In this document: positions 2,388 through 17,465 of the stretch, piece by piece | How the letters are laid out: each line of letters starts with the position of its first letter | Numbering within the stretch: position 1 is the stretch's first letter | Virus record (IMG/VR): IMGVR_UViG_3300008448_000639 | Span: 1-24,010 of that record | Origin: a virus | DNA: 24,010 nt | Reading direction: 5' to 3' (one strand) | Notes under the pieces: model-generated | Databases searched by the model: none | Told to the model about the DNA's origin: nothing | What the model saw: only the letters and a program-made list of their open reading frames with translations | Translations under genes and position numbers: made by a program

Positions 2388-2747
2388 TTATTTATACTTT
2401 ACAGGTGCTTTAGGGGATTTAGCAAAAAACTCTGGGGTTTGGATTTTACCATCATTTCCTACTATGGTTTTTTTCCCTGGGGAAGAAGATTTATTTGCTG
2501 ATTCTTTTTCTTCTTCGTAAAAGTTGTAAATTTGTTTAAAAGTAAAACGGCGAAGCCAAATTGGCATATCATAAATGGTATGCCAATCATATCCTCCTTT
2601 ACCATGAAATACTATTTGATGTATTTGAGTAAATATTGCTAGTCTAGTTTCAGAGGCAGTATTAGATGTCAGGCCAAAAAAAGCTAAGCCCAATTGGGAT
2701 ATTGACTCTGGTCTCGCTATCGTCGGGAAAAAAAGTAAGATCAACAT
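2388..2747 (-). CDS. Small tail assembly protein overlapping the gp26-family gene (possible frameshift partner)
   Basis: This 119-codon frame lies between the gp26-family gene and the tape measure gene. The conserved-looking core is residues about 35-80 (TRLAIFTQIHQIVFHGKGG, then YDWHTIYDMPIWLRRFTF), followed by an acidic/lysine-rich tail. The first ATG (2747) lies 86 bases inside the upstream gene, in the +1 frame relative to it, and the first 28 residues would be antiphase to the conserved end of the gp26 family. The next ATG is far inside the core, so the product starts at 2747, starts at a TTG near 2692, or is made by ribosomes that shift frame in the T7 run at 2682-2676. A two-frame overlapping gene just before the tape measure is the classic position of tail assembly chaperones (lambda G/GT, P2 E/E'). 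I do not recognise the protein beyond this; the chaperone role is inference. Confidence 0.6.
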   Translation of the reverse strand: MLILLFFPTIARPESISQLGLAFFGLTSNTASETRLAIFTQIHQIVFHGKGGYDWHTIYDMPIWLRRFTFKQIYNFYEEEKESANKSSSPGKKTIVGNDGKIQTPEFFAKSPKAPVKYK

Positions 2748-3393
2748 CTGGCTGGATCTCTTTTACATATTCTCTAAGAGCTTTCGAGTCTCGGGCTAAG
2801 AGAGCGTTGTCGACAAAATCTCGAATATCTTTCCTATCTCTACTGCCTTCTATTGAGGTTATTAGGTATTTTAAACGGGTAGAAAGTTCAGGAGATGAAT
2901 CTTTATTTATCTTTTTTAATCCTTCCAGCTCAGCTGACACGTCTTGTTCATCTTTATGAGTTAAAAGTTTAAAAGTAATATTATTTTTAGAATATGGTAA
3001 AGTAAATGAAAATTCGTTTACTTTATTTCTAAATAATTCTTCATTAAGAGGTTTATTTTCAATTTTAGAAAGATCTATAGTATAAGGAGCTCCATTGTAT
3101 TCAAAACTGTATGATGGGCCATATCCTAAAATACGAGCAGCTACCATAATAGCATTTTTATCTCCTACTAACAAATCATCATAGTTAATTTTTGATACAA
3201 TAAGAGATCTCATTACTTTATCTATAACTGTACCATTCTTAATATATATTTGGTTCGTTAAGATATCTTCTTCACGAGCAGTCATATATTTCATAGTAAT
3301 TTTTCCTTTAGCTAACTCAGTTCCTTCAGGATAAAGTAAACCTTTAGAGGGTAATTCAATTTCTTCAGTTGGTAACTTAAATTTTTCTTCCAT
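2662..3393 (-). CDS. T4 gp26-family baseplate/tail assembly protein
   Basis: The 243-residue product has the features of the T4 baseplate protein family typified by gp26. The N-terminus contains LPSKGLLYPEGTEL (residues about 14-27). A strongly conserved block reads ITMKYMTAREEDILTNQ, then GTVIDKVMRSLIVSKINYDDLLVGDKNAIMVAARILGYG in register. The C-terminus is NIPIGLSFFWPDI, which matches the aromatic FFWP ending I know from this family. The protein is therefore full length. In T4, gp26 acts in baseplate hub assembly. The gene follows the 123-residue unknown after 41 bases and overlaps the next ORF by 86 bases. Codons in its last third (GTC, GAC, CTC, GCC, AGC, ACC) are unlike the A/T-ending codons used elsewhere. 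The start is the ATG preceded by the A/T-rich stretch AACAAATAAAAATT. Confidence 0.8.
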   Translation of the reverse strand: MEEKFKLPTEEIELPSKGLLYPEGTELAKGKITMKYMTAREEDILTNQIYIKNGTVIDKVMRSLIVSKINYDDLLVGDKNAIMVAARILGYGPSYSFEYNGAPYTIDLSKIENKPLNEELFRNKVNEFSFTLPYSKNNITFKLLTHKDEQDVSAELEGLKKINKDSSPELSTRLKYLITSIEGSRDRKDIRDFVDNALLARDSKALREYVKEIQPDVDLTFFPDDSETRVNIPIGLSFFWPDI

Positions 3394-3434: not shown

Positions 3435-3806
3435 TTAAAGAGAAGTAATATTATCAGGATTTACATTAAATGATAAAACTCCTTCTACTTTTAATATTTC
3501 TTTTCTAATTTCATCCATTTTACTTTTATCAAAACCACCTTTTGCAATCCATGGATGACCATCAACTTTAATTGTTAAAATAGTTTGAAATTTTTCTGTG
3601 TTTTGTTCACTATATTCCATTGGTTCTTTTGAAGATGCTACAGTAATACCGGGAATAGAACGAATATCTGAAAATATTTCTTTTTGGGGGCGTTTTTTAA
3701 TATTTGTAATAATCATCCCTACCATTTTATATTTATCTTGGTAGTCTTCGTTTAGAGTTCTTTTTAACTCTTCTTTAACTAATTGGCGTAAATTGTCTAA
3801 TTTCAT
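3435..3806 (-). CDS. Conserved phage protein of unknown function (123 aa)
   Basis: I do not recognise a named family. The N-terminus (MKLDNLRQLVKEELKRTLNE) is an amphipathic helix of a type common at the start of virion-associated proteins in marine T4-like phages. It is followed by a mixed alpha/beta part with strands near MVGMIITNI (residues 28-36), PGITVASS, FQTILTIKVD and a final helix-strand (DEIRKEILKVEGVLSFNVNP). The order suggests a small ferredoxin-like or ACT-like fold, but this is only a secondary-structure impression. There is no signal peptide or membrane segment. It follows the secreted trio and precedes the gp26-family gene, so a role in tail or baseplate assembly is plausible. 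The AATATTTATA motif ends 5 bases before its ATG and overlaps the stop codon of the upstream gene, so it may start its own transcript. Confidence 0.7.
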   Translation of the reverse strand: MKLDNLRQLVKEELKRTLNEDYQDKYKMVGMIITNIKKRPQKEIFSDIRSIPGITVASSKEPMEYSEQNTEKFQTILTIKVDGHPWIAKGGFDKSKMDEIRKEILKVEGVLSFNVNPDNITSL

Positions 3807-3811
3807 ACGAG

Positions 3812-3822
3812 TATAAATATTA
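3812..3822 (-). promoter_or_regulatory. Late promoter-like motif before the 123-aa gene
   Basis: Coding strand TAATATTTATA at 3822-3812, five bases before the ATG at 3806. It also covers the TAA stop of the T9SS gene (3822-3820), so overlap with that stop may make the match partly accidental. A transcript would start almost at the start codon. Confidence 0.4.
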
Positions 3823-4380
3823 CCGAATTAAAGTAAGGTGACCATGAATTAAATAACGTTTATCAGAATGAATGTCTCCAAAATCAATTCTCCAAATGTA
3901 AGTTCCATCTTGGCACATTTTTCCTTTATACGATCCATCCCACCCCATTTCATGATCATAAGATTCCCAAACAATTTGACCCCATCTATTAAGAATTAAA
4001 ACATGAAAATCTAATGGATCAAATCCTGAAGTGAAAGTTACGTTCCATGTTTGGTTTGATTCATCTCCATCAGGGGTAAAACAGTTAGGAACATAATAAG
4101 TTAATTCTTCACATTTGGTTACATGAACTGTATATGTAACTGGTTCACTAGGGCAATTTAAACTGTAATGAATAGCTGTAAGGGTGTATGTTCCTGTGTC
4201 GCTCCAAGTTAAGCCTATTGGATTTCCATAATGGTATTGACCATTAACTTCCCATTCAGTATTACCCGGTAAATTAGCTTCTGTTGAATAAAAAAATGTT
4301 TGAGGTTCATCACATAATTCTACTTCTTGTTGTCCAAAAGCAATATTAAATGCTAATAATATAAAAAATAATATCCTCAT
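3820..4380 (-). CDS. Secreted protein with type IX secretion type B (gliding-motility CHU_C) sorting domain
   Basis: The 186-residue product begins with a clear Sec signal peptide (MRILFFILLAFNIAFGQQ, cleavage likely after FG at residue 16). Residues about 18-90 form a PKD/Ig-like domain ending in TYTLTAI and PVTYTVHVTKC. Residues about 95-186 are a canonical CHU_C domain: YVPNCFTPDGDESNQTW, then LILNRWGQIVWES, then GWDGSYKGK, DGTYIWRIDF and the terminal GHLTLIR. In Bacteroidota this domain directs secretion and surface attachment by the type IX system. Six cysteines lie in the mature part. It is the last of three adjacent genes with signal peptides; its ATG shares one base with the preceding stop (TAATG), implying translational coupling. 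A host-surface or adhesion role is inferred. Presence inside a phage tail module is unusual, and whether the protein reaches virions is unknown. Confidence 0.88.
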   Translation of the reverse strand: MRILFFILLAFNIAFGQQEVELCDEPQTFFYSTEANLPGNTEWEVNGQYHYGNPIGLTWSDTGTYTLTAIHYSLNCPSEPVTYTVHVTKCEELTYYVPNCFTPDGDESNQTWNVTFTSGFDPLDFHVLILNRWGQIVWESYDHEMGWDGSYKGKMCQDGTYIWRIDFGDIHSDKRYLIHGHLTLIR

Positions 4381-4943
4381 TAGTTATGTGAAATTGGTGA
4401 TAGTGTAGGTGTAGGATTAACTGTAACTGATGTAGTAGCTGTAAATGTACATCCACCTTGTGTTACAGTATATGTTAAAGGGAATGTACCTGCTCCAGAT
4501 GTTCCAGGACAAAATGTGTTTCCTACTACACCGGTTCCTGTTAAAACACCACCTGCAGGTGTAGTTACTACAGCAACACAAGCATCTGTAGAACAAAATG
4601 GGCCTAAAGCAGTAATTGTAGGTACAATCTGCAATATAAACACGTTAACTGTTGAGGCAGGGCTAGTACATCCAGATGCGTTACTTGCAGTAACTGTAAC
4701 AGCATTGTTGATTAAACCAGGAGCAGCTGCTGACCAATTGACACCAATTTGATTTGTACCTTGGCCTGAGGTAATCACACCAGGAGCAGCAACAGTCCAA
4801 GTATAAGTGTATCCTGGGGTATTTGTGACCTGATAAATTGATCCATTTGTTTGGTAACAAACTGTGTCTGGGTTAAGGGTTGTAAGTTGTCCAAAACTAA
4901 CAACAGAAATAAATAGAAATAAAGTTAAAAGTAAATTTTTCAT
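4380..4943 (-). CDS. Secreted PKD-like domain protein (second gene of secreted trio)
   Basis: The 187-residue product has a Sec signal peptide (MKNLLLTLFLFISVVSFGQ, cleavage after residue 18 or 19). The mature chain is low in charge and rich in Thr, Val, Gly and Pro. Residues about 28-105 match the PKD-like domain found repeatedly in secreted Bacteroidota proteins, with TYTWTVAAPGVITSGQGTN and the following NWSAAAPG. A second beta domain (about 106-178) has paired cysteines in GPFCSTDACVAVV and TFCPGTSG. The chain stops abruptly at PTPTLSPISHN, sharing the ISHN ending with the gene before it. There is no CHU_C domain. Its stop overlaps the start of the next gene and it begins 12 bases after the previous one, so the three are one operon. 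Function unknown; an extracellular structural or adhesive role is inferred from the domain type. Confidence 0.8.
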   Translation of the reverse strand: MKNLLLTLFLFISVVSFGQLTTLNPDTVCYQTNGSIYQVTNTPGYTYTWTVAAPGVITSGQGTNQIGVNWSAAAPGLINNAVTVTASNASGCTSPASTVNVFILQIVPTITALGPFCSTDACVAVVTTPAGGVLTGTGVVGNTFCPGTSGAGTFPLTYTVTQGGCTFTATTSVTVNPTPTLSPISHN

Positions 4944-4955
4944 AGATTTTATTTT

Positions 4956-5540
4956 TTAATTGTGAGATATTGCTCCTACAGAAGGGAGTTGTGGGTTAAT
5001 AGTTCCATTAAATACTACAAAAGGGGTAGCTAAATCACATGATGTGCTTCCCCAACTACCCCATAAACCATCAGAACCAGGTGTTACTGAAATTGCTAAA
5101 CTTTGAGGGGTACAACCTTGCGCTACAGTTAATGTAACACAAAAAGTCCATATACAAGATCCTGAATCTCCAAAATCATTAGCTGGGTTTCCATTCATAT
5201 CTAAATCAAAAAAATATCCAGGTCCTACAAGTCCAACGGGAGTATTTGAAGCTAATGTCCATAACCATTGACCTCCACTTACATTACCTCCACAATTAGC
5301 AGGTGCAGTTTGAGGTTGAACATTTGCCCATCCTGGTCCTAAAGTTAAATCAAATCCTTCTATCCAATTAGTTCCTGCTTGTGAATACCCATTCATAGTG
5401 TAACACATAGTTACAACTTGACCAGGTAAATATTGATTTCCAACAGGAGGAGGAGTTAATGTAAATGATTGAGTTCCATTACATTGTGAATATCCCCAAA
5501 TAAATGGGAATAAAAATAACAGTGTATTAAATAATTTCAT
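4956..5540 (-). CDS. Secreted beta-rich protein (first gene of secreted trio)
   Basis: I start the gene at the ATG at 5540 and not at the in-frame ATG at 5597, because only the inner start puts a normal Sec signal peptide at the N-terminus (MKLFNTLLFLFPFIWGYSQ, cleavage near residue 19). The outer start would also lie in the terminator hairpin. The 194-residue product is then a Thr/Pro/Gly/Trp-rich beta domain with CNGTQSFTLTPPPVG, GQVVTMCYTMNGY and GFDLTLGPGWANVQP, and later SGSCIWTFCVTLTVAQGC. This pattern is familiar from secreted Bacteroidota proteins, but I cannot name a function. It ends PQLPSVGAISHN, close to the end of the next gene product. The cysteine after the signal peptide is not in a proper lipobox (YSQC), so a lipoprotein is unlikely. 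The gene follows a terminator and therefore probably has its own promoter. Confidence 0.78.
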   Translation of the reverse strand: MKLFNTLLFLFPFIWGYSQCNGTQSFTLTPPPVGNQYLPGQVVTMCYTMNGYSQAGTNWIEGFDLTLGPGWANVQPQTAPANCGGNVSGGQWLWTLASNTPVGLVGPGYFFDLDMNGNPANDFGDSGSCIWTFCVTLTVAQGCTPQSLAISVTPGSDGLWGSWGSTSCDLATPFVVFNGTINPQLPSVGAISHN

Positions 5541-5583
5541 ATAACTAATATATATTATATTTTTTAAATATCCAAAGAAAAAT

Positions 5584-5615
5584 AAAAGCTCCAACATATA
5601 AAATGCGGAGCCTTT
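5584..5615 (-). terminator. Rho-independent terminator after the tail tube gene
   Basis: Read on the minus strand, AAAGGCTCC pairs with GGAGCTTTT (nine pairs, one G-T), with a 14-base loop. It is followed by TTTTATTTTTCTTT. It lies just after the tail tube stop and before the secreted trio, so it separates virion genes from the cassette. Confidence 0.7.
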
Positions 5616-5639
5616 ACTTTTATTGTTTAACCTAAAATT

Positions 5640-6128
5640 TTAGTAATTCAAGATACAGTAATCAGGTTGTACTTCAATTGTAATATTAACAGCAGTACCG
5701 TCATCATCCCAGTTATAATCTCCAAAGTTTACACTAGTAATCATAGCTCCTTTAATAATCCATTCATTTACAATATCACCTACTGGGCCTAAGCCTTGGA
5801 AGGTAATATCCTTTTTATAGAAATCAGAGTAACCATCTCTACCTGTTACAGATTCGTGACCTAAACGTACCCATTCCATTACTGTTTGTGAACCTGCAGG
5901 GGTAATAGCTTCAAATAAGGTAAATGAAATAGTATTCCAAATAGTTTTTCCTTTTACATAACGTTGAACGTTAATATGGTTAAGAGCTACTGCAGTTTGA
6001 GATAAAGATATAGCTCCCATTCCTTTTACTAAATATGCAGGAATACCTTCCATATAAAGTATAAAACGATTGGTTAGCCTTGGTTCAAACGCTGTATAAA
6101 ATATTTCATTCGGTTCTAAAATTGCCAT
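5640..6128 (-). CDS. Tail tube protein (T4 gp19 family)
   Basis: The 162-residue product has the size and sequence character of T4-type tail tube subunits. The start (MAILEPNEIFYTAFEPRLTN) leads into RFILYMEGIPAYLVKG. A middle block reads KGKTIWNTISFTLFEAITPAG, followed by VMEWVRLGHESVTGRDGYSDFYKKDITFQGLGP in register. The C-terminus (GAMITSVNFGDYNWDDD, then VNITIEVQPDYCILNY) has the NFGDYNW pattern usual in this family. Subunits stack as hexameric rings inside the sheath and form the channel for DNA. The gene directly follows the sheath genes, as in T4 (18 then 19). A TAATATTTATAATAAAA-type motif lies 27 bases upstream of the start, the longest spacing in the window, and a terminator follows the stop, so it can be transcribed alone, which suits a protein needed in many copies. 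Confidence 0.9.
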   Translation of the reverse strand: MAILEPNEIFYTAFEPRLTNRFILYMEGIPAYLVKGMGAISLSQTAVALNHINVQRYVKGKTIWNTISFTLFEAITPAGSQTVMEWVRLGHESVTGRDGYSDFYKKDITFQGLGPVGDIVNEWIIKGAMITSVNFGDYNWDDDGTAVNITIEVQPDYCILNY

Positions 6129-6178: not shown

Positions 6179-7879
6179 TTATGAAGGAAATTGAGCTCCT
6201 GTTGGTAACAAAATGAAATCTAATGATATAAATTCAGCTGTACGAGTTGGTTGAATATAAATTTGTCCAACTAATTGGTTTTGGTCAATTACTGCAGGGC
6301 CATTATTTGATTCATCCATAATAACTTTATAAGCATATAATCCTTGTTTTTGTTGGATAGTTTCTAAATATGGAGTTACTCTTGTAAGGAATGATAAACG
6401 TGTTGCAGTTGTATTTTGTTCAAACACAATCGTATCTGCAATTTGACGAATATAATTTTTCATTTCAATCAATAAACGTCTAACATTTACACGATCAAGA
6501 GAAGATTGAGCTTTTTGTAATGTTTTTTGTCCAAATACTACAACACCTTTTTTAGGTAATGTTGCAATTGGGTTAACATTATTTGCATATAAAGTATCTC
6601 TATTAGCTTGTGATAGTTTATATTGAGCTTGTAATACTGTAGATAAACCTCCACGGTTAATACCTGCAGGTGCAAACCAAGGGGCTGATACTTTATCATT
6701 AAATGCATATACACCTGGAATTACTGTTGAAGCAGGTACCCAAACTTGTTTTCCTGTAGCTGGATCAATTATGCGAACCCAAGGCCAATATGATGCTGCA
6801 TATGAAGTATCTCTAGATTGGGCCTGGATTGTAGCATCTGATAAAGTACTATTGAAATCTGTTAGGTCCATTACAAATAAATTATCTCCTCTATCTTGGG
6901 TATTTGTAATAATATTAGTAACTTGGGTAGGATGAGTGTCATTTAATAATCCTGGGGCAAATAATACATTAAATTGATATGCTTCACGATTTGCTAATAA
7001 GGAAATCATACTATCGTAACAACCAGCAGTTAAACCTTGTGTATTAGTTGAAATAGCATCGTATAAATTTACTACTGAATTTAATGTGCCTGTAGCTCCA
7101 CCAAAAGATCCACTTTGATTAATAGGAAGAGAAGCAGTATATGCTGTAACTGGGGCTCCATTAGGGCTAAAATAATTTGGGGTATTAAGATCAACTGATT
7201 TAACTCGAACATATCTTGAATTATTTGGATAACTTCCAGATAGTTCCATTTGATTATTTGTAGCACTATAATTTAATGCTTGATCTCCAATTACTCTAGC
7301 AATATAGCGAGATGAATTTGGGTCTAAAGTTAAGCTATTCCAAGATTCAAGAATAACGGGATTATTAGTAGTGTCATTTCCTCTTCTAATTAATAGATTA
7401 AATGTTCCTGATCCTGTATTAGAATTGGTAATTTCCCATCTAATGTTATCTGATGATCCTGAAATAAGAGAGCCAGAAGCATCTAATGAACTAGTACTGT
7501 TCATAAGAGCTCCTTCAGAAAGAGTTTCAAGGGAAAATGAAGAAGAAGTAGCATTTAAATAACTAGATACTGTATTGCTAGTTGCTGAAGAATATGAACC
7601 AGTTACAACACGAGTTACTAATAATGAAGTTCCTCCATAATTAAAGTAGTTGTAAGCTGCAATTGAGGTTAAATAAGAATATGCATTGCCCCCACTAATA
7701 AAAGAATCTCCAAAAATACTTCTATAATCAGAATATGAAGTTACTAAAGTTGGGTTTTCAACAGGACCTTTAACTGTTGGACCTATAATAGCTGCTCCAG
7801 CCTGTACAGGTTGGCCAGTTAAAAATGTATTGTCTATTTCACTAATTGCTACTCCAGGAGATACTGTAAATTTTGCCAT
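6179..7879 (-). CDS. Tail sheath protein 1 (T4 gp18 family)
   Basis: The 566-residue product starts MAKFTVSPGVAISEID, the usual SPGV sheath N-terminus, then GQPVQAGAAIIGPTVKGPV and AAYNYFNYGGTSLLVTRVV. The C-terminal third has the sheath signature: VFGQKTLQKAQSSLDRVNVRR, LLIEMKNYIRQIADTIVFEQN, and NQLVGQIYIQPTRTAEFI followed by LDFILLPTGAQFPS. A central part (WPWVRIIDPATGKQVWVPAS and APWFAPAGINRG) also matches. Sheath subunits wrap the tube and contract on infection. It is clearly paralogous to the next sheath gene upstream over both ends, but lacks the roughly 130-residue insertion found there. A motif TAATATTTATAATAAAA ends 14 bases before the ATG, so it has its own likely promoter. Which of the two sheath proteins builds the tail cannot be told from sequence. 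Confidence 0.92.
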   Translation of the reverse strand: MAKFTVSPGVAISEIDNTFLTGQPVQAGAAIIGPTVKGPVENPTLVTSYSDYRSIFGDSFISGGNAYSYLTSIAAYNYFNYGGTSLLVTRVVTGSYSSATSNTVSSYLNATSSSFSLETLSEGALMNSTSSLDASGSLISGSSDNIRWEITNSNTGSGTFNLLIRRGNDTTNNPVILESWNSLTLDPNSSRYIARVIGDQALNYSATNNQMELSGSYPNNSRYVRVKSVDLNTPNYFSPNGAPVTAYTASLPINQSGSFGGATGTLNSVVNLYDAISTNTQGLTAGCYDSMISLLANREAYQFNVLFAPGLLNDTHPTQVTNIITNTQDRGDNLFVMDLTDFNSTLSDATIQAQSRDTSYAASYWPWVRIIDPATGKQVWVPASTVIPGVYAFNDKVSAPWFAPAGINRGGLSTVLQAQYKLSQANRDTLYANNVNPIATLPKKGVVVFGQKTLQKAQSSLDRVNVRRLLIEMKNYIRQIADTIVFEQNTTATRLSFLTRVTPYLETIQQKQGLYAYKVIMDESNNGPAVIDQNQLVGQIYIQPTRTAEFISLDFILLPTGAQFPS

Positions 7880-7924: not shown

Positions 7925-10054
7925 TTAAGTTGGGAAAACTGCACCCGTAGGTAGTATATTAAAGTCTAATATAATAAATTCAGCTGTCCTTGTAGGTTGT
8001 AAATATATTTGACCTACTAATTGATTATTATCAATTACAGTTGGAGTATTATTAGTCTCATCCATAATTACCTGGTATGAGATTAAGCCTTGGTTTTGTT
8101 GAATGGTTGATAGATATGCCGTAATAATAGATGAAAATTCACTTCTAGTAGCTGCATTATTTTGTTCAAATACATAAGTATCAGCAACTTGGGAAATGTA
8201 ATTTTTAAGTTCTATTAATAAACGTCTAACATTTACACGATCGAGAGCACTTTTTTTCTTTTGTAATGTCTTTTGACCAAAAACAGTTACACCAGCATTA
8301 GGAAAAGTAGCAATTGGATTAACATTACTTTGATATAAAGAATCTCTATTACCTTGAGTTAAAAATCTTTCAGCAGAAAGAACATTTGTCATAATTCCTC
8401 TATTTATTCCAGCAGGGGCAAACCAAGGATAAGAAATAGAATCACTTTTAGCATATACTCCAGGAATTAAAGCTGAAGCTGGTACCCATCTTTGGGAAGC
8501 TGTGTTAGGGTCTATTGTTTTAACCCAAGGCCAGTAAGTTGCTGTATATGAATTATCATAAGTAATGGCATTAGTTAAAACTGTATTAAGAGGTTTATCG
8601 TACCCTACTAGATCAATAATAGTCATACTATCTGCTCTATTTGTAACCATACTGATTAATTGGGTTACAACAGGTACATGGGATGGGTAAAAAGTGCCAT
8701 CTGCAATTAATCCAGGAGCTGTAATAAAATTGTATTTATATGCATCTTTATTAGCTAATAATGAAATAGATTCAGTATAACTATTTGCTGTTAATCCTTG
8801 TATGTTAGAATTAGTAATATTTTCATAGTATGCACCTGCTATTCCTGTTGGAATATTTTTTCCTTTTCCATTACCAAATACTCCAAGAGATGAAGTAGGA
8901 ATAGAACCAGTATATTCTGGTTTTGGATTCCCTACATTATCTAAATATCCAGGAGTATTTACATTAACTTGTTTAACTCTAACATATGATGATTGGTTAG
9001 GATAATTACCTATAGTTTGAAGAAAATATTCTCCATTATCTGAGGAAATTTGTTCATATTGATTTCCAATTACTTTTTCAATGTAGTTTGAAGAATATGG
9101 ATCTAATGATAATGGGCCCCAAGTTTCTAAAATAGAAGGTTGAACTATTGAATCATTACCTTGCCTAATAACTAAAGTAAAAGTTCCATCATTAATGTTT
9201 TGACCTACTATTTGCCATCTATAATTTTCAGATGAGCCACTTAATAATGTACTATTTGAACCAGTAGGACCAGCACTATTCATCATTTCACCTTCAGATA
9301 GTGTTTCTAATACAAATGCTTCAGTATTTGTACCTCCAGAAAAATATGTTGTAGTACTTCCTGAGATAAGGTAATTAGAATTTCCTAAAAAACCATTAGA
9401 TCCTATATAAGTAAATATTAGATTGTTAGGAGTAGAAAAACTTGAAGAAATATATGGTAAAGAAGCACTATATGGTGCTACTGAGCTACTAAAATTAAAT
9501 ATAGCAGATGCAGTTGTTATATAATCTGCAACTGTTAATGGATGGGCTGAAAATGATGCTGTATTAACATATACAGTAGTTGATGTATTAGTTACGTTAG
9601 ATCCGGTAAAGAAAAAGGTGATTCCATTTACATTAAATGAACTTGAACCATTAACTGAAAGCGCAACACTAGCTGAAACGTATGTTAGGTTTAGGGTAAT
9701 TGACGCACTGGTAGCAGCTATTGATGTAGGGATAAGAGATGAAGTAGCAGGTGTCCAATCAGTTGCTGTACTTCCACTTACTACTCGTGTTACTAATAAC
9801 GAATTACCTCCATTGTTAAAATAGTTATATGCGGAAATAGAAGTAAAATACGTATAGGTTTGACTTCCACTTAAAAAAGTAGTTCCATATTTGTTAACGT
9901 AATCGCTATAAGTAGTACATAAAGTAGGAATCCCAATTTTTCCCTTAACCGTTGGTCCTATAATAGCAGCACCTGCTTGTACAGGTTGTTGAATTACAAA
10001 AGATTGATCATTTTCTATGGCTAATACACCAGGTGATACAATTGTTTCTGCCAT
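7925..10054 (-). CDS. Tail sheath protein 2 (T4 gp18 family) with surface insertion
   Basis: The 709-residue product is a paralogue of the downstream sheath. Shared landmarks are the SPGVLAIEND start, QQPVQAGAAIIGPTVKGKI, SAYNYFNNGGNSLLVTRVV, WPWVKTIDPNTASQRWVPAS, YPWFAPAGINRG, VFGQKTLQKKKSALDRVNVRR and the end NQLVGQIYLQPTRTAEFI. Relative to sheath 1 it has about 130 extra residues (about 100-245), a Ser/Thr/Tyr-rich beta-type stretch including SFNVNGITFFFTGS and LIFTYIGSNGFLGNSNYLIS. It then rejoins at FVLETLSEGEMMNS, matching FSLETLSEGALMNS of sheath 1. In gp18 structures such inserts form protruding outer domains, so this is probably a surface decoration. A motif with ATATTTATAATAAAA lies 19 bases before the start. 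A role as minor sheath or alternative sheath is inference. Confidence 0.9.
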   Translation of the reverse strand: MAETIVSPGVLAIENDQSFVIQQPVQAGAAIIGPTVKGKIGIPTLCTTYSDYVNKYGTTFLSGSQTYTYFTSISAYNYFNNGGNSLLVTRVVSGSTATDWTPATSSLIPTSIAATSASITLNLTYVSASVALSVNGSSSFNVNGITFFFTGSNVTNTSTTVYVNTASFSAHPLTVADYITTASAIFNFSSSVAPYSASLPYISSSFSTPNNLIFTYIGSNGFLGNSNYLISGSTTTYFSGGTNTEAFVLETLSEGEMMNSAGPTGSNSTLLSGSSENYRWQIVGQNINDGTFTLVIRQGNDSIVQPSILETWGPLSLDPYSSNYIEKVIGNQYEQISSDNGEYFLQTIGNYPNQSSYVRVKQVNVNTPGYLDNVGNPKPEYTGSIPTSSLGVFGNGKGKNIPTGIAGAYYENITNSNIQGLTANSYTESISLLANKDAYKYNFITAPGLIADGTFYPSHVPVVTQLISMVTNRADSMTIIDLVGYDKPLNTVLTNAITYDNSYTATYWPWVKTIDPNTASQRWVPASALIPGVYAKSDSISYPWFAPAGINRGIMTNVLSAERFLTQGNRDSLYQSNVNPIATFPNAGVTVFGQKTLQKKKSALDRVNVRRLLIELKNYISQVADTYVFEQNNAATRSEFSSIITAYLSTIQQNQGLISYQVIMDETNNTPTVIDNNQLVGQIYLQPTRTAEFIILDFNILPTGAVFPT

Positions 10055-10365: not shown

Positions 10366-10698
10366 TTATAGATATTTAAAGGTTATTTCTTCATTTATTT
10401 GCACATCACGTACAGTTTTTATTATTACTAATTTATTTTCTTTATCAATTTCAAATTTTACATTAGGTTTATCACTAGAATTTATTAGACTAACATATCC
10501 TAACCCCAATATAAAATTTTCATCATAAGGATAAAAATGTTCCATTAATTCCCGTGAATCATATATTTTTGCTTGTAACACTATTCCCGGATTTTGAAGG
10601 ATTATAGTGTCTGCTTTTATAAATTCATTTGCAAACATACCCCATCCGTGTATAGGTGATTTTGCAATTTTTAAATTAAAATTTATAAGATCAATCAT
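10366..10698 (-). CDS. SET-domain protein (putative lysine methyltransferase-like)
   Basis: The 110-residue product has the ordered motifs of a minimal SET domain. Residues 14-23 (SPIHGWGMFA) match the N-terminal SxxxGxGxFA loop that helps bind S-adenosylmethionine. LGLGYVSLINSSDKPN (residues 64-79) corresponds to the GxxxxxNHSxxPN motif, with the usual His replaced by Ser. EEITFKYL (103-110) corresponds to the EELTxxY motif with the catalytic-region tyrosine. It ends right after that motif, so there is no post-SET cysteine region. SET proteins methylate lysines on protein substrates. In a structural operon the target might be a virion or host protein, but this is inference. The His to Ser change could lower activity. 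It sits 9 bases after a fibre-like gene and 3 bases before the coiled-coil gene. Confidence 0.78.
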   Translation of the reverse strand: MIDLINFNLKIAKSPIHGWGMFANEFIKADTIILQNPGIVLQAKIYDSRELMEHFYPYDENFILGLGYVSLINSSDKPNVKFEIDKENKLVIIKTVRDVQINEEITFKYL

Positions 10699-12525: not shown

Positions 12526-13263
12526 TTAATGTCCAAATCTAGCTTTTGTAGCATTATAATTTTTAAGTATTTCTGTTGCTGTTAAAGCTCGAGTATAAAT
12601 GTGAGCCGCTCCTATTTGGCATTCATTATAATATGTAGCCCAATCTAAAGCTGATGCAAATGATAAGCCTAATGTTGTACTAGTACCTAATGCTGTTATC
12701 GCAGTTGTTGAACTAGCGTTTAATACACCATTTACGTATATTGCTTGTTGACTATTAACAGCATCATATACTGTACTAATATAAAAAAACGTACCAACGT
12801 TACCTGAGTTTAAAAATGCAGTTGAAGATAATGTTTGGGCAGTACCTCCTGGATCTTGGGCTGCTACTCTCCATTTTAATTGTATGGAAGTGTTATCTTG
12901 TTCTATTCCTAATCTAGTAAATGTATCAGAAGATGTTTCTTCATAAAACATACGTTTATCAACCCCCGCTGATATTGATAGTGGTTTCCACCACATATTT
13001 ATAGTTACTTGGTTTTTTCCAGCTAATGTTGCTCCAGAATTTATTGTTGCTGTTTGGTTAGTTCCATTAAATGCAAAACTTTCACTTGCAGGAATATAAG
13101 TACAATCTAAGGCAGCATCCCACCCATTCCCCGACATATCTTTCCATGTTGTAGGGGTTGGGTTTTCAGGTACATAATATGAATTTGGTGATGCCGCATC
13201 AAAATATAAATGTAAACCATTTGTTACTATGTCTGGTCCTCGCCATCCGTATGAATATGCCAT
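12526..13263 (-). CDS. LamG / concanavalin A-like lectin-fold protein
   Basis: The 245-residue product has the plan of LamG-type jelly-roll domains found in phage structural proteins. It starts NGLHLYFDAASPNSY (residues 15-29), with WKDMSGNGWDAAL (40-52) and ESFAFNGTNQTATIN (61-75), the usual W-x-D-x-S-G-N-G and FdGtn motifs. Strands VTINMWWKPLSI, TRLGIEQDNTSIQLKW and FFYISTVYDAVNSQQAIYVN follow, and the end reads IGAAHIYTRALTATEILKNY, matching the AxVYnraLtxxEI motif of the family. Such domains bind glycans, so a host surface polysaccharide receptor is likely. It lies 3 bases after the large fibre gene and 14 bases before the paralogous adhesin pair, so it belongs to the recognition block. 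No enzyme active-site pair was identified. Confidence 0.82.
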   Translation of the reverse strand: MAYSYGWRGPDIVTNGLHLYFDAASPNSYYVPENPTPTTWKDMSGNGWDAALDCTYIPASESFAFNGTNQTATINSGATLAGKNQVTINMWWKPLSISAGVDKRMFYEETSSDTFTRLGIEQDNTSIQLKWRVAAQDPGGTAQTLSSTAFLNSGNVGTFFYISTVYDAVNSQQAIYVNGVLNASSTTAITALGTSTTLGLSFASALDWATYYNECQIGAAHIYTRALTATEILKNYNATKARFGH

Positions 13264-13266
13264 AAC

Positions 13267-15069
13267 TTATATTGATCTTATAATTGTTTTCATTGTCCAA
13301 CCACCAGTAGTAGCACTTCCAGTTAATGCAAAATTACCACCAACTCTAAATACACCAAATGACAATCCTGCAGTAGTACCAAACGCTGTTGTAGTTGTCT
13401 CTGAATAGTTTACTGCCGATCCTGACCACACTGCCATTACTTGGCCTGCTCTTGCATTTGAACCAGATCGAATTACATACTCAAACCAAGCTCCATCATA
13501 CGATGCTGTTGGAATAGAATACACTGTAAACTGGCCAGATGCTGTTACAATTGTTTCTTGCGTGGTAAGTAACGCTTGATATCCAGGTTTACCAAATGTT
13601 ATATTGTTGTCAGAAGTGACTTCTAAAATCGGGTTACCTGATTGATTATTAACGCTAAATAGTGAACCTGAGAATGTATCGTATACAGAAAATAATTCTC
13701 CTGCACCTCCTTGTATTTTAAGTAATGGGTTAGCAGAGCCTGAATCGTATATTGTTAAACTTCCAGTAATAATTGCTGAACCTGAGAATGGGAATGCTGC
13801 TCCACCACCATTTAAAGCAAATGATGCTGTAAGAGCATAGGAAGATGATAATACTGAATTAGCTCCATTTGGTCCAAATATATTTGAAGCGGTTATAAAT
13901 GAAGCAGTTGCTGCCGTACCAAATAAACTACCTGTTATACCTTGAGTTACTGTTAAAGATCCTGTTACTTCTGTATTGCTATTTATACTAACTGTAGTTC
14001 CATCATCTGATACATTTGAGCTAGTGATATGTTCACCTAAATCCCCTGCTTGTCCTTTGGTTAGTCTGTTAGCAGTAATTGTAATTTCATTTCCAACATT
14101 ATTAAATGTTTGGGGGCCCATTATTAAAACAGAACTAGTAACAGGGGAGCCAGCAGTTTGTTGATGAATAAAAATCCATTGATCATTTACTGAATCAAAA
14201 AGCAAAGAACCAGATATTATAGGAGATGAACCTGAGTCTGCTACTGCGATACCTCCAAACCGCAATGGTGATATATTAGTGTTAAGTGTTATAATATTGG
14301 TTCCAACATTAAGTTGAGATGATGTAATATAAGTAATAGAGGATGTTGTAGCTGTTAAATTAGTAACAGATAAATTACTAATATTAGCTGAACTTGCTGT
14401 AATAGACCCAGATATATTTAGGCTGCCAGTTATACTAACATTTTGTTGTAATGGGTTAACGAATGATGCAGTAGAAGCAAATGAAGCTGAGGTTGCTGTT
14501 GCTGCGTTTCCAGTGATGGATCCATTAAAAGTTCCACTATCCCAATTCAATACCGAACCACCACCAGAATCAAATAATTGTCGTGTTTGCCAATCCACCG
14601 ATGATATACTACTTGTATCTTGTAAATACCTATTAACCCAATCAACAGACGTATTTGCTGTATTATCTGTTAGTAGTCTATTCTCCCAATCAATAGATTG
14701 AACTGAAGTTGCATCAATAACCTGGTTATTTAGCCAATCTATTCTAATATCACTCGCATCATCTTTTAATTGTCTATTACCCCAATCTACACTTGTATTA
14801 TTTGTAGTAGTATCTAGTAACGCTAAGCTACCCCAGTCTACTGTTGGTGTGTTGTTGGTTAATAAATGTCCGGTACTACTTTTAATACCATACGTTGATC
14901 CAGATACGGTTAGTGATCCAGTTATAATTAATGATCCTGTTATAAGAGCTGATCCGGTGTATGGGAATGCTGAACCACCACCACCGTTTAAAGCAAATGA
15001 TGCAGTAGCTGCAAATGAAGCACTTTCTGCATTTATTAAAAAACCATTTATTTTACTTATATTACTCAT
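13267..15069 (-). CDS. Tail fibre protein with DW repeats (600 aa)
   Basis: The 600-residue product shares its make-up with the preceding fibre. Residues 13-55 contain ASFAATASFALNGGG and the cassette FPYTGSALITGSL. Residues 75-180 hold about seven 16-residue repeats with the pattern DWxNRxLxD (examples VDWGNRQLKD, IDWENRLLTD, VDWVNRYLQD). A beta-rich middle follows (SPLRFGGIAVADSGS, then VNDQWIFIHQQTAG). A second FPFSGSAIITGSL cassette is at about 425-440, and a compact C-terminal domain at about 480-600 ends WTMKTIIRSI. This is the layout of a trimeric beta-structured shaft with a receptor-binding tip. Its ATG overlaps the previous stop by 4 bases (ATGA), so translation is coupled to the 799-residue fibre. 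No chaperone-type autoprotease motif was seen. Confidence 0.83.
   Translation of the reverse strand: MSNISKINGFLINAESASFAATASFALNGGGGSAFPYTGSALITGSLIITGSLTVSGSTYGIKSSTGHLLTNNTPTVDWGSLALLDTTTNNTSVDWGNRQLKDDASDIRIDWLNNQVIDATSVQSIDWENRLLTDNTANTSVDWVNRYLQDTSSISSVDWQTRQLFDSGGGSVLNWDSGTFNGSITGNAATATSASFASTASFVNPLQQNVSITGSLNISGSITASSANISNLSVTNLTATTSSITYITSSQLNVGTNIITLNTNISPLRFGGIAVADSGSSPIISGSLLFDSVNDQWIFIHQQTAGSPVTSSVLIMGPQTFNNVGNEITITANRLTKGQAGDLGEHITSSNVSDDGTTVSINSNTEVTGSLTVTQGITGSLFGTAATASFITASNIFGPNGANSVLSSSYALTASFALNGGGAAFPFSGSAIITGSLTIYDSGSANPLLKIQGGAGELFSVYDTFSGSLFSVNNQSGNPILEVTSDNNITFGKPGYQALLTTQETIVTASGQFTVYSIPTASYDGAWFEYVIRSGSNARAGQVMAVWSGSAVNYSETTTTAFGTTAGLSFGVFRVGGNFALTGSATTGGWTMKTIIRSI
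14530..14847 (-). repeat. Seven-unit DWxNRxLxD coding repeat (48-base period)
   Basis: Residues 75-180 of the 600-residue fibre repeat every 16 residues (17 at two units), each beginning with V/I-D-W and continuing with xxRxLxD. The DNA copies are diverged, so it is an old repeat; the unit is probably one rung or turn of a fibre shaft. Confidence 0.75.
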
Positions 15070-17465
15070 ATTTCATACCAGTCGTTAGATGGGTTAAATT
15101 TCATTATCCAATAATCAGGGTTTGATGTGCTATTATAGTACATATGACCTACTACTCTTACATATCCTGAGATGGGTTTGGTTGTGGTAAATGTTGCAGC
15201 AGAACCAGTCAAGTATACAGGCATACCATAAAAGTTACTTCCACTTACAAAAGGTGTTGTATCCCCATATCCAGATGCTGTTGTAACTGTGATTATTCCT
15301 TCTGTTAGAATTTGTCCTTTGTTATACGGCTCTACACAGATTCCTAAAAGTTTTGTAGTGGTGTCAGTTGTTTGATCTGATCGCTTCCAAATACCATCTG
15401 TGTCTAAAAATACAGGATTAGATGCTGTTACTGCTAAGTCTACGTTCGGGTTAACAGTTATAATATTACCAGCAACGTTAGTGCTTAAACCAAAAACTTG
15501 AGTTTGAGTAAAATTATTCTGAGCATCTAGTGATAAATTTTCAATAGTAGGTCGATAGTTAGTTATACTATAGCCATTACCACCACTGTAATCTATAATG
15601 TTATTATTGTTTTGATCATTCATGAACCTACTAGCCCAATCAACTGATACATTAGCTGCACCGTCGGTAAGGTATCTTCCTTCCCAACTGGTTGATTGAT
15701 TACCGGCAGAATCGTATGTAGCGCGTGATTCCCAATCTATACTAGAAACAGAAATACCACTTCCTCCTGGGGCTCCGGAGTCACTCATTAGCCTGCTATT
15801 CCAGTTTAGAGATGCACTTTCATTGGTATCTGTTAAATCTCTAGACGACCAATTTATAGATGAGGATTGATTTACATCATATGAAATACGACTGTTCCAC
15901 TCTACAGATCTAGAAAAATTTGTATCTATTAATTGCCTATTGCCCCAATCAATCGATCGAGTTGTATTACTATCAATAGCATATAAGTTTCGCCAATCTA
16001 ATCTTGTAGAACCGTTAGCAGCACTTAATAGTCTATTTGCCCAATCAACACTTGAACTACTATTTGTACCATATAAAGTTCGTACATTTGTGTTTAGATT
16101 ATTTGTTCCGTTTCCATCTATTACAGATAGACTACCAGTTACGCCTAATGATCCGGTTATACGAGCTGAACCTGTGTATGGGAATATTGCTGATGGGGGT
16201 ACATATGATGCTGTTAAGGCAAATGATGATGTGACAGTAAGTGTGTTAAACTTTGGATTATATAATCCATCTCTATCAGCGGCAATTAGTTGCGTAGACC
16301 CAGTATTTGCTACAAATGCTATATGAAACTGTGCATTAACATCACTAGCATCGGCTATGTTAGCTGCTGAACTGGTAATTGCAAATGAAGCTGATAATGC
16401 TTGTGTAGCATATGAGGCTGTTCCAAGTAAACTTCCGGTAAATGAAGTTGCTGTTAATGAACCTGTTAAACCATATGAACCTGATAATTGTTTTGTGTTT
16501 TCCCAAACTTGAGAACCACTATCCCACACTAATAAATCTCCAGTAGATGCACTAGTAATTAAAACATCATGTAATTCCCCAATTTCATATCCATTTTGGA
16601 TATCAATGTATATAATACCGTTAGTAGCTTGTGTAATGGTTTTACCTAACCGTACTTCATGTAATGGTGAAAGAGGAGGAACACTTGTATATTGGCCACT
16701 TGATGACAAATATAAAGAAGTACCAGGAGGAAATGCATTTGTGTTTATATCTCGAATCAATCCATTAGTAACAGCATATCCGGTTTGGCTACTGTTGATA
16801 TCTTGAGCTATAATACCTATAGTAGTTGCACTTGATGAATCATCAGTCCAAGATGCGGTAGCAAATGTGGGTCTATTGCCCGATTCTCCATTAATATAAA
16901 CAACTGAGCCTTTTGTTAAAGTAAATGAATTAACATTTCGCCCCCGTATTACACTTTGATGACCTATTTCAAGTTCAAAGTTATTTACGTCTGTATCTAA
17001 TTGGAGTGTTTTTGTATCATCTGTCCAATGTAAACGACCTGTGTTAAATGCTGGTTCTGCAGGTAACAAAGTAAAATCAATGTAATCTACAGTTGAAATA
17101 TATGATTGGGTAACAAGTAAAGAACCTGTTATAATTACGTTTTGATTTAATGGATTTACATATGATGCTGTCAATGCATATGAAGCACTTGTAACGGTTA
17201 AAGATGAAATATTAACATTAAATGTACTTCCGTTACCTTTTGTAAATGTTAAATTTGGGTCTGAAAATGAAGCTGTTGTTAACAATGAACCTGTGTTAGT
17301 AGTTCCACCTCCACTTCCACTTGCTGTAAATTCTTTTACAACATTACCTGATCCTGAACCATAAAATAGCCTTCCATCGGTTACATTAATTGCTAATTCA
17401 CCTTGTACTAGTGAAGAAGGAACACTTCCTGAATTTGCGCTATTTCTTGTTATTATTGTGCTCAT
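15066..17465 (-). CDS. Large tail fibre protein with DW repeats (799 aa)
   Basis: The 799-residue product begins with a virion-attachment-type N-terminus common in phage fibres: MSTIITRNSANSGSVPSSLV, then QGELAINVTDGRLFYGSG. Residues 59-105 are the module GSLLTTASFSDPNLTF, with VNISSLTVTSASYALTASYVNP, shared with the small gene at 18652. Residues about 165-300 form a compact beta domain (NVNSFTLTKGSVVYINGESG, ATTIGIIAQDINSSQTGYAV, NGYEIGELHDV). Residues 470-627 hold about nine DWxNRxLxD repeats, and 640-799 a C-terminal domain with KLLGICVEPYNKGQILTEGI and YVRVVGHMYYNSTSNPDYWI. A repeat-built shaft with a distal tip is the natural reading. The motif TAATATTTATAATTA ends 5 bases or fewer from the ATG. 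The next fibre gene overlaps it by 4 bases. Confidence 0.85.
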   Translation of the reverse strand: MSTIITRNSANSGSVPSSLVQGELAINVTDGRLFYGSGSGNVVKEFTASGSGGGTTNTGSLLTTASFSDPNLTFTKGNGSTFNVNISSLTVTSASYALTASYVNPLNQNVIITGSLLVTQSYISTVDYIDFTLLPAEPAFNTGRLHWTDDTKTLQLDTDVNNFELEIGHQSVIRGRNVNSFTLTKGSVVYINGESGNRPTFATASWTDDSSSATTIGIIAQDINSSQTGYAVTNGLIRDINTNAFPPGTSLYLSSSGQYTSVPPLSPLHEVRLGKTITQATNGIIYIDIQNGYEIGELHDVLITSASTGDLLVWDSGSQVWENTKQLSGSYGLTGSLTATSFTGSLLGTASYATQALSASFAITSSAANIADASDVNAQFHIAFVANTGSTQLIAADRDGLYNPKFNTLTVTSSFALTASYVPPSAIFPYTGSARITGSLGVTGSLSVIDGNGTNNLNTNVRTLYGTNSSSSVDWANRLLSAANGSTRLDWRNLYAIDSNTTRSIDWGNRQLIDTNFSRSVEWNSRISYDVNQSSSINWSSRDLTDTNESASLNWNSRLMSDSGAPGGSGISVSSIDWESRATYDSAGNQSTSWEGRYLTDGAANVSVDWASRFMNDQNNNNIIDYSGGNGYSITNYRPTIENLSLDAQNNFTQTQVFGLSTNVAGNIITVNPNVDLAVTASNPVFLDTDGIWKRSDQTTDTTTKLLGICVEPYNKGQILTEGIITVTTASGYGDTTPFVSGSNFYGMPVYLTGSAATFTTTKPISGYVRVVGHMYYNSTSNPDYWIMKFNPSNDWYEI
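15585..16058 (-). repeat. Nine-unit DWxNRxLxD coding repeat (48-base period)
   Basis: Residues 470-627 of the 799-residue fibre carry about nine units such as VDWANRLLSA, IDWGNRQLID and VDWASRFMND, mostly 16 residues apart. One unit is stretched to 23 residues by a Gly/Ser insertion (GAPGGSG). The same repeat type occurs in the next gene. Confidence 0.75.

Follow-up and report, generated by a model that had tools for sequence, protein, structure and literature searches.

The window that we analysed, that is, the whole 24,010-base viral contig, contains a tail module of T4-like type, encoded on the minus strand, in which two sheath paralogues are followed in turn by the tail tube gene, three genes whose products we call P1, P2 and P3, a terminator-like tail gene and a gp26-type hub gene. 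The slot that holds the trio is bordered upstream by the tail tube gene (5640–6128, minus strand), which was assigned by a match to phrog_4542 (2e-16) and by synteny, and downstream by the tail terminator-like gene (3435–3806, minus strand), for which a weak profile match (0.006) was combined with synteny; the gp26-type baseplate hub gene beyond it (2662–3393, minus strand) matches phrog_150 at 1e-8. These data agree with the initial annotation of the sequence, made from its letters without database searches, which had placed the cassette between tail tube and baseplate assembly genes. It had also placed the cassette after a terminator, and this we regard as plausible: RNA folding revealed a terminator-like hairpin with a U run (−17.3 kcal/mol) at about 5581–5618 (minus strand), between the tail tube gene and P1, although a simple consensus scan found no terminator and missed this hairpin. 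In those phages in which the trio occupies the tail slot, its position suggests late expression together with the structural genes. The window has further features of note: the two different sheath paralogues are adjacent (6179–7879 and 7925–10054) and are both kept in relatives, a SET-domain protein (PF00856, 9e-13) is encoded inside the tail module at 10366–10698, a laminin G-like domain protein (PF13385, 3e-12) is found at 12526–13263, and fibre-like proteins with many short SVDWxxR- and TGSL-type repeats occupy 13267–17465.

Three adjacent ORFs lie on the minus strand exactly at positions 3820–5540, where three exported proteins had been proposed, namely P1 (4956–5540, 194 aa), P2 (4380–4943, 187 aa) and P3 (3820–4380, 186 aa). 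Inspection of the sequences bore out the Sec signal peptide that had been ascribed to each protein, with hydrophobic starts ending in YSQ (P1), FGQ (P2) and FGQ (P3). These peptides comprise residues 1–18 of P1 (5487–5540, minus strand; before Q19), where a helix is predicted over residues 2–16, residues 1–18 of P2 (4890–4943, minus strand; before Q19) and residues 1–16 of P3 (4333–4380, minus strand; before Q17), with a predicted helix over residues 3–13. A hydrophobic signal sequence followed by glutamine is the usual layout of Bacteroidota signal peptidase I substrates, and this glutamine is most likely the first mature residue of all three proteins. P2 contains a PKD_6 domain (2.6e-11, Pfam). 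No Pfam, PHROG or NCBIfam family was matched by P1, the model of which is an Ig-like sandwich that matches a large number of adhesin and pilin domains at Z of about 9 and has no distinctive neighbour; such Ig-like matches are too common for a function to be named from the fold. A match of P1 to iota-carbonic anhydrase (3.5e-5 over about 50 residues) was also rejected, as this family was absent from the fold searches. Pfam and NCBIfam scans detected no C-terminal sorting domain of T9SS (type IX secretion system) type A, B or C in either P1 or P2, and both proteins end in the tetrapeptide I-S-H-N (P1, 4959–4970; P2, 4383–4394; both minus strand).

Among the three proteins, only P3 carries a T9SS signal. 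The CHU_C domain anticipated in the last protein was confirmed by profile search, with 55.8 bits for PF13585 (cut-off 27; E-value 5e-15) and 52.4 bits for TIGR04131 (cut-off 35; E-value 4e-14), and this type B sorting domain takes up approximately residues 91–186 (3823–4110, minus strand). The modelled fold of residues 91–186 superimposes on the CTD (C-terminal domain) of PorZ (5m11; Z 8.9, rmsd 2.7 over 85 residues) and on that of PorU (6za2; Z 8.0), the model of the whole protein having a mean pLDDT of 89, and its single N-terminal domain was modelled as a fairly complete Ig fold by itself. Sequence comparison places P3 closest, among solved proteins, to the end of GhpA, a grappling-hook protein on the surface of Aureispira (2e-19), and the CHU_C core is kept across 47 aligned P3 sequences. 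P3 is probably exported by T9SS. Type B cargo depends on a PorP/SprF barrel, the gene for which commonly lies close by, and this barrel is believed to retain the cargo on the surface (PMC10202324, PMC9143113). A PorP/SprF-like partner (TIGR03519) was found in none of the 13 phage records examined, most of them fragments, and the phage proteins would therefore need a host barrel; a clustered PorP/SprF gene is a usual, not an obligatory, trait of type B substrates.

Relatives of the trio were collected by scanning IMG/VR, in which 3, 43 and 103 contigs were matched with P3, P1 and P2 as the query respectively, and the order P1–P2–P3 and the shared strand proved to be constant in nearly all fetched loci of sufficient length. 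The type IX sorting domain noted in the initial annotation is thus present, in P3, but that reading missed what the domain-less proteins have in its place: all 63 distinct split P1 sequences end in [IV]-x-H-N and 67 of the 68 distinct P2-type sequences in I-x-H-N, the remaining one ending in I-x-H-D. P3 ends in the usual CHU_C motif and never in this tag. If an unrelated protein (L068, L075, L082 and L104) or a longer diverged one (L084, L089, L095, L099 and L111) takes the place of P1, it too has a signal peptide and an I-x-H-N end, as has the product of an extra gene located after P3 in L073 and L110. Altogether, seven companion proteins unrelated to P1 and P2 share this end (e.g. in L068, L073, L104 and L110). 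With shorter overlapping ORFs removed, every ORF of at least 90 aa ending in HN in the fetched loci belongs to the tagged set, an enrichment that is partly circular, as the loci were fetched through P1–P3, whereas the seven unrelated tagged proteins are free of this circularity. All four codon combinations for HN are used, which indicates that selection acts on the protein. Intein-like or ligase chemistry was considered for the terminal HN and rejected, since no Hint domain was found and there is no bond after the asparagine. Two further observations concern the make-up of these loci: in L073 (312–1466) a tagged protein ending in GPIQHN is encoded about 4.5 kb from the trio, so that tagged partners need not adjoin it, and in one phage subgroup P1 and P2 are separated by the gene for a further protein, which has about 400 aa and no tag (L083, 1868–3088; L106, 4681–5889).

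In addition to the split trio, we found fused relatives; a scan with the fused protein as the query matched 139 contigs, and related fused genes are present in phages of 634–642 kb. In the fused chain the P2 and P3/CHU_C domains follow each other in the order of the trio, within the same slot, and in 32 complete fused sequences we found neither an internal I-x-H-N nor a terminal HN. Comparison of the two forms at the domain junctions aligns fused ..VVGPI-VAS-DTVC.. with split ..VVGPI-xHN-stop followed by the mature start ..NPDTVC.., and fused ..TITPI-TPYNEFF-ELC.. with split ..TLSPI-xHN-stop followed by QQxxELC.., from which it follows that the residues just before HN match the start of the Ig-like domain that comes next, the HN residues themselves having no counterpart in the fused chains. 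The PKD_6 match begins at Pfam model position 8–10 in split P2, compared with 2–7 in the fused chains, and grafting the P1 tail without HN on to the P2 core brought the start back to position 3–5 and added 5.6, 5.2 and 5.0 bits in three pairs, whereas a shuffled P1 tail added 0 bits. Scored with profiles built from the fused chains, the P2 tail placed directly before mature P3 gained a mean of 7.8 bits over 58 loci; shuffled tails gained 2.0 bits there and the P1 tail 4.3 bits. With HN and the extra P2 N-terminus removed, the P1 tail before P2 gained 7.1 bits (shuffled, 1.9), and the P2 tail was equally good in that place (8.8 bits); with the same profiles there was no gain for the P1 tail with HN before the natural P2 N-terminus. 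Specific pairing of the P1 tail with P2 and of the P2 tail with P3 is accordingly partial at best, given that the P2 tail fits the P2 domain equally well. We conclude that the tail would represent a displaced inter-domain strand or linker, in keeping with joining in trans after the manner of donor strands. HN is an additional feature found in the split form only, perhaps serving as a lock or recognition mark.

A scan of bacterial genomes, together with 396 genomes of the same order, showed that short P2 homologues also occur in a chromosomal operon. Here a gene with LysM and periplasmic-binding-like parts (about 440 aa) is followed by a gene that we call X (200–1047 aa), the P2 homologue (190–526 aa) and a CHU_C protein (356–428 aa), and both X and the P2 homologue bear an I-x-H tag whose last residue is less strict (N, F, Y or W) and is D or E in the Bacteroidales examples; variant ends were seen in two operons (IISN or IVTN; IIFN). 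The neighbours are conserved in several Flavobacteriales genomes, instances from this order being L186 (4937–9861), L142, L187, L189, L191, L193, L196, L199 and L200. There is no PorP/SprF-like gene (TIGR03519) beside the operon, and between 2 and 7 such genes are present elsewhere in each of the five genomes tested. This operon of Flavobacteriales and Bacteroidales is apparently undescribed and, because its three-gene logic and tag are those of the phage trio, the phages probably took the cassette from their hosts. A genome-wide excess of the tag at the DNA level was looked for and rejected, as 196 genomes yielded about 120 PI.HN-stop and about 127 PI.NH-stop matches; with permuted codons as the control, a difference emerged only on checking for ORF ends, as 19 of 30 inspected PI.HN-stop loci and none of 30 PI.NH-stop loci proved to be the end of a real ORF. 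The sprCDB genes were also rejected as the bacterial parent, as six Flavobacterium-like sprB loci lack the tag at the SprC and SprD positions.

The reading that we favour, with roughly even confidence, is that the trio is a phage-borne, host-derived cell-surface complex, with P3 as its carrier and with the tags joining P1, P2 and P3. Sec would take each of the three proteins across the inner membrane, and P3 would use the host T9SS to bring the complex through the outer membrane and anchor it at the cell surface, P2 acting as the fixed connector and P1 as the variable outer module. The I-x-H-N tail of P1 and P2 would then stand in for the peptide bond of the fused form, with the P1 tail supplying P2, and the P2 tail supplying P3, with the missing first strand of the next Ig-like domain, as in donor-strand complementation. 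Assembly of P1, P2 and P3 into one complex through the tag appears somewhat more probable than not, and strand donation as the means of joining may be put forward tentatively. Several observations speak against this reading: the profile gains are not specific to one pairing, HN has no counterpart in the fused chains and may be read by something else, the N-terminal domain of P3 was modelled as a fairly complete Ig fold by itself, no PorP/SprF-like gene was found in the 13 phage records (mostly fragments) or beside the bacterial operon, and two bacterial operons have variant ends. Presented during infection, the complex would alter what the infected cell binds or what binds to it, and its presumed benefit could lie in superinfection exclusion, in the masking of receptors or in a change of adhesion or aggregation. 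The connector and the T9SS anchor being fixed and the outer module exchangeable, the cassette resembles a platform for presenting varied binding domains on infected cells. In its broadest form, which we hold with somewhat less than even confidence, the proposal is that I-x-H-x at the extreme C-terminus could act as a signal for assembly or sorting that has gone unrecognised in Bacteroidota and their phages, whereby exported proteins without a T9SS domain would be strung by strand donation in trans on a short CHU_C protein and surfaced as one split adhesin, which the phages would use as a plug-in platform with exchangeable outer modules.

The tag could instead be read by a host component, such as an outer-membrane barrel, a periplasmic carrier or a ligase, with P1 and P2 sorted singly and P3 as a mere neighbour or co-cargo. 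Such a reader would account for a tag on unrelated proteins, sometimes away from the trio (L073, 312–1466), for an HN without counterpart in the fused chains, and for bacterial tags that differ in the last residue only, as a recognition motif might. However, we think this unlikely, as the tagged genes lie nearly always directly before, and rarely after, the CHU_C gene and in the same order, the untagged fused forms unite the same domains in that order, and the segment preceding HN completes the profile of the next domain.

The distribution of the cassette among phages bears on where its products are likely to act. The same arrangement of tube, trio, terminator and hub was found in about 25 contigs, which answers the search of related phages for a trio between tube and gp26-family genes that had been suggested in the initial annotation; other, more numerous trios lie away from these tail genes, on contigs of up to 436 kb. 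With the tail tube protein as the query, the slot proved to be polymorphic among the matches listed: it is empty in, for example, L274, L279 and L294, holds the trio in L060 and the window, and holds a single fused protein in L280 (657 aa) and L290 (733 aa), and in partial form in L276–L278, L281 and L286, a tally that describes the matches listed and is not an unbiased frequency. Within the tail module the cassette is thus gained or lost as a whole, in keeping with the separate insert that had been envisaged, and the conservation at the tail locus throughout the phage group that would be expected of a tail structural protein was not observed, the slot being empty, occupied by the trio or occupied by the fused form. 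As the tail-slot trios take at least three separate positions in a quick tree of P2 domains (SH-aLRT starred branches), the slot was probably entered by the cassette more than once, and at least three times.

Residence between tail tube and terminator in about 25 contigs, and probable entry into that slot on at least three occasions, are what might be expected if P1–P3 were virion parts (a tail fibre or decoration) whose signal-like and CHU_C features are remnants of a captured host gene, and Ig-like domains are indeed commonly borne by phage virions. Nevertheless, the clear signal peptides of all members would direct them away from the cytoplasm, the site of myovirus tail assembly, the CHU_C core has been conserved throughout the 47 aligned P3 sequences, and most trios lie away from these tail genes, with the slot empty in many relatives, and we consider this explanation improbable. 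A dedicated virion part, which was among the suggestions of the initial annotation, is similarly argued against by the fact that most relatives have the trio, unchanged in form, at a place other than the tail module. Slightly less probable still is a purely accessory cargo that plays no part in infection (chance host genes, or genes expressed only to benefit a surviving host), with which the many empty slots and the homologous bacterial operon would agree, but against which stand an intact unit in more than 100 diverse viral contigs, a tag strongly conserved at the protein level, a compact phage form that differs from the bacterial form and repeated entry into the tail-gene slot. The related concern that the stretch is a chance host insertion absent from relatives can be set aside, as relatives of the trio were found on over 100 other viral contigs.

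The cell-surface complex that we favour can be compared with several known systems. With T9SS type B substrates (PF13585/TIGR04131; SprB, PG1035 and GhpA) the trio has in common a Sec signal peptide, a C-terminal CHU_C domain and Ig/PKD-like passengers, but P3 is very short, the passengers are separate proteins, there is no linked PorP/SprF gene and the whole is phage-encoded. Cryophage, a cryoconite phage, carries three type A T9SS cargo genes with a proposed role in competition or superinfection, the products of which were reported as single proteins with type A CTDs, i.e. two glycoside-hydrolase-type enzymes and a PA14 protein (PMC7468147), and T9SS sorting domains have been noted near BACON genes in gut phages, in the crAss-BACON neighbourhoods (PMC6949934). 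These are likewise Bacteroidota phages that encode T9SS sorting domains; in contrast with Cryophage, the trio is a type B multi-protein cassette with tagged partners, present repeatedly in a tail-module slot. The earlier remark that a phage export cassette of this kind is little described therefore needs to be narrowed, since phage T9SS cargo of type A has already been published, and it stands for the split cassette, as we found no description of this cassette, the I-x-H-N tag or the bacterial operon in the open-access literature. The sprC-sprD-sprB-sprF gliding operon of Flavobacterium likewise encodes exported proteins ahead of an adhesin with a type B CTD, but the genes that precede the SprB-like gene in six Flavobacterium-like genomes have other sizes and end in ...TVIK and ...VEN, with no I-x-H-N. 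With the donor-strand assembly of chaperone-usher pili and of Bacteroidales type V pili (e.g. Mfa) the cassette would share the logic that an end strand completes the Ig-like fold of the next subunit, whereas it has no usher or lipoprotein signal, and the proposed donor is a C-terminal tail closed by HN on proteins destined for T9SS export.

T9SS cargo is defined by large C-terminal domains. If a four-residue tag does let domain-less proteins ride along, the prediction of T9SS secretomes changes, and the tag would also explain the three-gene operons of Flavobacteriales and Bacteroidales. More than 100 viral contigs, including fragments of up to 436 kb, would then seem to alter the infected cell surface by way of the secretion machine of the host, and the occurrence of one locus in empty, split and fused states provides a natural experiment through which the mechanism can be tested directly. 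Finally, in a phage of 642 kb (LR756502; L006, 3360–8372) we noted a single protein of 1,670 aa with a P1-like domain, many SprB-like repeats and a CHU_C-like end, which resembles a host gliding adhesin.
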